From NCBI RefSeq assembly GCF_000331225.1, contig NZ_ANFY01000017.1:124001-188000 (forward strand): a DNA stretch of 64,000 bases, in the 5' to 3' direction. The stretch's first letter is position 1; every line of letters begins with the position of its first letter. The position numbers and the translations under genes were made by a program. The notes under the pieces are model-generated. The model saw only the letters and a program-made list of their open reading frames with translations. It was not told where the DNA came from and did no database searches. Below are positions 20,429 to 20,579 of the stretch, piece by piece. This DNA comes from Sandarakinorhabdus sp. AAP62. Its GTDB lineage: Bacteria > Pseudomonadota > Alphaproteobacteria > Sphingomonadales > Sphingomonadaceae.

Positions 20429-20579
20429 GAGTCAGAGTGGATTCACGGTCAAGAATCTTTTGGAATCAACAGGATTCATGCATTTGTCACAACAAGGAAT
20501 CAAAACGGGAACAAATCCACATCTGGAGTCCAGGCGATTCCCCGGGACTCAATCCCTAGTGGTGTGACTCAAAAGACTC
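20429..20579. promoter_or_regulatory. array of eleven GANTC sites upstream of ccrM
   Basis: Sites start at 20429, 20440, 20453, 20463, 20473, 20497, 20526, 20536, 20546, 20566 and 20575. Distances are 11, 13, 10, 10, 24, 29, 10, 10, 20 and 9 bp, so most are close to multiples of a helical turn. Chance expectation at this base composition is about 0.5 site in this length. The last site overlaps the rnhB stop codon. The array fills most of the 177-bp rnhB-ccrM gap, where the ccrM promoter must lie unless ccrM is only read from rnhB. Confidence 0.9.

Follow-up and report, generated by a model that had tools for sequence, protein, structure and literature searches.

Why should the gene for a DNA methyltransferase be preceded by a dense series of the sites that its own product recognizes? 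This question is raised by the window analysed here, 64 kb of the genome of Sandarakinorhabdus sp. AAP62 (3.13 Mb in 22 contigs), in which ccrM, the gene of the GANTC adenine methyltransferase CcrM, is encoded on the minus strand at 19234-20400 (Pfam N6_N4_Mtase, 5.8e-67; RAMA, 1.6e-14). The start codon is either GTG at 20400 or ATG at 20397; the genome has no second match at E <= 0.001, and the gene is 98% identical to ccrM of S. limnophila. Upstream on the same strand lies an open reading frame for ribonuclease HII, rnhB (20578-21168; Pfam RNase_HII, 1.7e-45), the stop codon of which overlaps the most distal of the sites in question. Recounting confirmed the claim of the first-pass annotation that the gap between the two genes holds eleven GANTC in 151 bp (20429-20579); namely, the sites start at 20429, 20440, 20453, 20463, 20473, 20497, 20526, 20536, 20546, 20566, and 20575, with successive spacings of 11, 13, 10, 10, 24, 29, 10, 10, 20, and 9 bp.

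Such a density has no equal in the DNA that we sampled. The whole window contains 79 GANTC, and its second-densest 150 bp holds three. In 388 kb of the genome (the window plus 324 kb elsewhere, i.e., about one eighth of the genome scanned for clusters), we counted 431 GANTC, or 1.11 per kb, and no other 151-bp stretch had more than four, the number in the densest stretch of the 324 kb. When 20,000 first-order Markov sequences were modelled on the gap, the mean was 1.47 GANTC and the maximum was seven, and the 23 other orderings of the four letters of GANTC occur zero to two times each in the gap. In the 823 kb surrounding ccrM in 80 relatives, furthermore, the top clusters outside the array had six and five GANTC. 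The former lies where a contig of Stakelama pacifica ends, with a thiD-like gene downstream (L051:173; six in 151 bp), and the latter falls within repetitive sequence that encodes RIERA repeats and is not an array of the ccrM type (L059:6866; five in 151 bp). A chance origin is hence rejected by the window count, the genome sample, and the Markov sequences, and the 388 kb sampled also reject the idea that arrays are commonplace in this genome. A local repeat or a quirk of assembly is rejected by the presence of the array in 80 relatives (the best 80 of 427), and a terminator of rnhB is rejected by conserved letters that reach across the -35 and -10 regions described below.

The sites are laid out over a predicted promoter. 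A putative -35 box, TTGACC, is found at 20447-20452 on the minus strand, and a TTGAC of this kind is present within 170 bp upstream in 81/81 Sphingomonadales loci; 17 bp past it, a putative -10-like hexamer, CATCAC (20424-20429, minus strand), can be read from the sequence. Numbered from the -35, the two core sites are +8 (20440-20444), within the spacer between the -35 and the -10, and +19 (TGACTCA, 20429-20433), which overlaps the edge of the -10 and has a variable N in the genus. Four central sites follow upstream, of which -5 (20453-20457) abuts the -35 box and the others are at -15 (20463-20467), -25 (20473-20477), and -49 (20497-20501). The five distal sites are -78 (20526-20530) and -98 (TTGAGTCC; 20546-20550), which belong to the right and left arms, 20 bp apart, of an inverted repeat, -88 (20536-20540) inside that repeat, -118 (20566-20570), and -127 (20575-20579). 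These distal sites are part of a longer element, TGAGTCYTTnnnGnCACACCaC...TTGAGTCC...GACTCAAnATCT, at 20517-20583 on the minus strand.

When the region upstream of ccrM was compared across Sphingomonadales, four to eleven GANTC were found within 400 bp upstream at 80/80 loci; these are the best 80 of 427 relatives, and the sample thus leans towards close ones. The region counted began 400 bp ahead of the protein match (277 bp in L016) and included the first 30 bp of it, and the densest 151 bp at the array holds 3-10 GANTC across the 80 relatives. The array is therefore no local oddity, and the earlier impression that other ccrM promoters carry a few GANTC needs amending for sphingomonads, in which many sites are the rule. 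Of the outcomes that the first-pass annotation named as refuting, absence from related genomes and a similar density in unrelated gaps were thus not encountered in the DNA sampled. Across 81 loci, the sites pile up at -128, -119, -99, -89, -79, -60, and -49 from the TTGAC, in a variable central part, and at +8 and +19. Where a locus has several TTGAC, the one best fitting the GANTC positions was taken as the -35, which favoured the pile-up at +8, +19, and -128 in those few loci. In 69/81 loci, the -35 is preceded by a GANTC at a distance of 125-129 bp, a range that was picked from the histogram, although the protein match begins anywhere from 37 to 159 bp past the -35. In other families of the same order, four to eight GANTC were present in 300 bp at 16/16 loci. 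A single locus, L240 (G286:C1:40106-41056), at first looked like an exception with zero GANTC within 300 bp upstream; six were nonetheless found further upstream, at 304-441 bp from the inferred start, with the usual spacings of 29, 20, and 19, and the array is displaced by extra leader sequence. This extra sequence, about 230 bp as judged by eye, lies between the intact array and ccrM, has inverted-repeat-like ends, and is perhaps a small mobile element.

Two other features of these control regions were also noticed. In loci of the Novosphingobium type (L057 and L032), GANTC sites nearly abutting the -35 form a palindrome, GCGACTCGCCGG-AAT-CCGGCGAGTCGC, which is perfect in L057 and has one mismatch in L032. 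In addition, DnaA-box-like words occur at two recurring places in 11/47 non-redundant loci: at -90 to -93 from the TTGAC, near a GANTC position of the others (L014, L017, L051, and L062), and at +28 to +37 (L019, L036, L057, L058, L065, L075, and L078).

The spacing of the sites had been described as helical in the first-pass annotation. In the window alone, the rhythm was weak; R was 0.64 at a period of 10.5 bp with p = 0.017, but this is the best of 11 periods tried and is not significant after correction. Periodicity was strong across Sphingomonadales, nonetheless, when we used the 38 loci with at least five sites among 47 non-redundant loci (selected from the 81 by k-mer overlap): neighbouring sites tend to be 9-11, 19-20, or 29 bp apart, and the period is 9.75-10 bp rather than 10.5. 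Its z-score of 12 does not translate into a probability because the loci share ancestry.

The distal part of the array was found to be a distinct conserved element with a single place in the genome. We made a profile, R1, of the distal 71 bp from 39 rows; the letters of the motif given above were taken from 39/47 non-redundant loci, which are partly other ones. In the host genome, R1 matched at ccrM with E = 8.1e-16, at this position on the opposite strand with 0.006, as expected from an inverted repeat, and next with 0.36. All 25 genomes of the family that were searched (24 of them under the genus code of the window) had a match with E from 1.1e-16 to 0.003, and the top match was just upstream of ccrM in 25/25; weak second places were seen in some relatives, with E from 0.002. 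In 16 genomes of other families of the same order, strict filters gave nothing convincing (best E, 0.087). The letters GnCACACC, found at 20559-20568 on the minus strand and in relatives beside the most distal GANTC, are kept nearly as well as that site.

CcrM recognizes GANTC with any N. The letter N and the orientation are fixed at the distal sites, nonetheless, so that another reader is likely. In the non-redundant set of 47, the N position is occupied by G at -128 (37/40), -119 (9/9), and -99 (34/35) and by C at -79 (39/39) and -60 (12/13), while it is mixed at the central sites and at -89. TGAGTC, in either orientation, accounts for 123/310 array sites versus 13/592 background GANTC, the latter being mostly GAATC or GATTC (476/592); genome-wide, TGAGTC occurs 118 times versus 172 for the reversed word. 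Also, when ten loci of the Sandarakinorhabdus group were aligned, eleven positions had GANTC in at least three rows, and N was identical in all of them at nine positions and almost always so at one more, which leaves +19 as the only place where it varied freely. Ten of these positions are present in the window, whose -88 site is its own and is seen in no other row. Minor letters in this alignment had a mean frequency of 0.05 in the GA/TC columns, versus 0.06 for N and 0.21 for the remaining columns. The bias in N and orientation is our main argument, drawn from sequence comparison, that a specific protein likely reads the array beyond CcrM.

The core of this promoter is also seen in much of the class beyond sphingomonads. 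Of 197 genomes of the class with a CcrM match, we sampled 89 and dropped two of the window's family; the start codon and the -35 were assigned by fixed rules, and every TTGAC was counted where a locus had more than one. A TTGAC was present no further than 200 bp from the inferred start in 67 of the 87 loci, with GANTC at +6 to +10 in 46/87, at +17 to +20 in 41/87, and at both in 32/87, and about half of the loci were without one or the other core site. As a control, the other TTGAC in the 89 loci had GANTC at those two places in 5/119 and 5/119. In 9/89, the 300 bp ahead of the inferred start were free of GANTC. At exactly +19 (36 sites, which include near relatives, e.g., L118 and L122), the next letter was A in 36/36, and N was C in 28 and A in eight; the exceptions at +17 to +20 were two sites with T as N and two without the following A. 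The -10-like hexamer, read from the sequence 17 bp past the -35, tends to CAnnnT, and the +19 GANTC runs into it, which would put methylatable adenines at the upstream edge of the -10. A profile of the core promoter, R2, matched only ccrM in this genome with a cut-off of E = 5, when 150 out of 1156 first-look candidates were scored.

Taken at its best reading, the 151 bp is probably the control region of ccrM, i.e., a feedback promoter that would sense methylation and has been expanded in sphingomonads. Much of the class has the -35 TTGAC, a GANTC in the spacer, and a GANTC running into the -10; the sphingomonads add the oriented upstream series with a spacing of about 10 bp, which closes with the distal inverted repeat and, some 127 bp upstream of the -35, a final site. 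The suggestion that ccrM carries a methylation-sensitive switch at its own promoter thus stands as regards the position of the array over a conserved predicted promoter, and the effect of methylation is what we infer. CcrM would methylate the array sites, and passage of the replication fork would leave the array hemimethylated, which would serve as the on-signal. A reader would then sense the oriented TGAGTC/TGATTC together with the methylation state and permit transcription; this reader may be RNA polymerase holoenzyme at the core and a further factor upstream, with possible help from GcrA where it is present. New CcrM would remethylate the array and turn transcription off, and, if many sites are remethylated singly, the shut-off would track the completeness of methylation and not one event. 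The class loci without one or the other core site, the nine without any GANTC, and the weak phasing of the window alone count against this reading.

Could GcrA be the reader of the whole array? In a classical GcrA regulon, GcrA would bind the methylated GANTC together with sigma70, and ccrM would be a target in the core regulon that happens to be rich in sites. Indeed, GcrA has been shown to bind GANTC in its methylated form and to protect ctrAP1 from the -35 to the -10 (PMC3667746), and CcrM was predicted in 2021, from YGAKTCK sites, to be one of the core targets of GcrA across orders of Alphaproteobacteria (PMC7987155). The host genome has gcrA, although split by a contig break within a run of Ala-Pro codons (G000:C19:36-254 and G000:C9:32-301); both contig ends encode a common stretch of 17 residues, and the two contigs hence very likely abut. 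The GANTC in the -35/-10 region that characterize GcrA promoters are present at +8 and +19 from the TTGAC, and the 36 class sites at +19 always read TGAKTC on the lower strand, which fits the beginning of YGAKTCK. This heptamer of Caulobacter GcrA, which we used for our test, is not enriched in the array, however (106/310 sites versus 195/592 in the background). According to the same 2021 source, YGAKTCK sites at ccrM are lost in part of Caulobacterales, and Brevundimonas showed no preference for an extended motif (PMC7987155).

Genomes without detectable GcrA also speak against it. A core site is kept in 15/19 of such class genomes versus 40/68 of those with GcrA, and Fisher p = 0.18 indicates no dependence on GcrA rather than a reversed dependence. 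A second search of the 19 genomes with the N-terminus of GcrA gave nothing convincing (best E, 0.007), even if a very divergent GcrA may have been missed. For four of the 19 (G087, G164, G206, and G210), another member of the family in the sample does have GcrA, so that its absence may reflect a gap in the assembly; excluding them leaves 13/15. For nine of the 19, a second sampled member of the family was also without a GcrA match, and a core site is present in 8/9. The N at +17 to +20 follows nearly the same rule in both groups: C in 11 and A in two without GcrA, and C in 20, A in six, and T in two with it. The persistence of the core without detectable GcrA weakens GcrA as the sole reader, and so the GcrA-like reader proposed in the first-pass annotation; we consider it unlikely that GcrA accounts for the array. 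These comparisons suggest that the methylatable core of the ccrM promoter does not stand or fall with GcrA.

The fixed N and orientation could also be turned against the feedback reading, since they could mark an ordinary operator, namely repeated TGAGTC half-sites for a sequence-specific regulator at which methylation is incidental to the GANTC overlap. The distal sites fit this description, as do the inverted repeat with its 20-bp spacing and the conservation of letters outside GANTC (CACACC and ATCT); moreover, +19 alone is free in N in the genus group, so that most sites may be retained for something other than methylation as such. GAATC and GATTC also accumulate in the middle of the array, however, at places of their own that are retained within the genus group, +19 stays GANTC while its N varies, and the gene under control is the GANTC methyltransferase itself. 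An ordinary operator is hence rather improbable, more so than GcrA as the reader. It is very improbable that the array works mainly by DNA shape or as a sink for CcrM with no reader at all, because, despite the periodicity of about 10 bp over some 150 bp, N and orientation are fixed, the distal element has a single place in the genome, and eleven of an estimated 3,500 genomic GANTC (by the sampled 1.11 per kb) are too few for a sink.

A CtrA box, as known upstream of the -35 from the Caulobacter type of ccrM promoter, was not found in the window, which has no TTAA between -180 and +60 relative to its -35. TTAAC or GTTAA was found within 75 bp upstream of the -35 in 18/47 non-redundant loci. 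The mean number of central GANTC was 0.94 in these 18 loci versus 2.55 in the other 29 (p = 0.0008, with ancestry ignored). On a CcrM tree with six independent pairs on well-supported branches, the central count differed in the opposite direction in 3.1 pairs and in the same direction in 0.4 on average, which is not significant; a trade-off between the CtrA box and central GANTC is thus suggestive only.

The principle that ccrM has methylation sites in its promoter is known from Caulobacter crescentus (PMC10073500 and PMC2217572), in which the same gene has two GANTC in its own promoter, CtrA acts as its activator, and its expression is tied to DNA in the hemimethylated state. The window differs in having eleven sites and no TTAA around the -35. 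Promoters under GcrA and CcrM (ctrAP1, mipZ, and podJ) likewise have methylatable GANTC to which they respond, with the ctrAP1 site adjoining the -35, but one or two sites are named for ctrAP1 and mipZ (PMC3667746), in contrast to the long phased upstream series here, and our core is also present in genomes without detectable GcrA. Another likeness is the GATC cluster of oriC in Escherichia coli, in which methylation sites are over-represented and, once replicated, are read by SeqA in their hemimethylated form; transcription of dnaA is likewise a target of SeqA, and seqA is restricted to a subset of the proteobacteria with Dam (PMC4285127). That cluster, however, serves origin control with another enzyme and motif, whereas the one described here is at the promoter of the methyltransferase. 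Promoters of ctrA in Sphingomonadales have up to five GANTC in 300 bp, i.e., fewer sites at another gene, for which counts are given (PMC8116508). Elsewhere, ccrM is listed among the genes most probably affected by GANTC methylation (PMC3973325), and GANTC were counted upstream of cell-cycle genes with no conclusion drawn there (PMC2877005). A search of titles and abstracts, mostly of papers outside subscription journals, found none on clustered GANTC at the ccrM promoter, and direct wording for clusters of GANTC likewise matched no paper. While control by GcrA is already predicted, therefore, what is new as far as we searched is the phased and oriented architecture of many sites, the distal element with its single place, the fixed layout in the sphingomonads examined, and the core without detectable GcrA.

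We tentatively picture a thermostat of ccrM that is independent of GcrA and probably ancestral, in which a dedicated reader of oriented TGAGTC would sense the completeness of methylation; this possibility, which we regard as rather less likely than not, would make the region of about 150 bp in sphingomonads a counter with many sites, replacing activation by CtrA in some lineages including that of the window. With a single recognizable promoter and up to eleven marks at recurring positions, ccrM of sphingomonads offers a direct test system for how the level of a solitary methyltransferase is kept right and for what reads the marks of CcrM where GcrA is missing.
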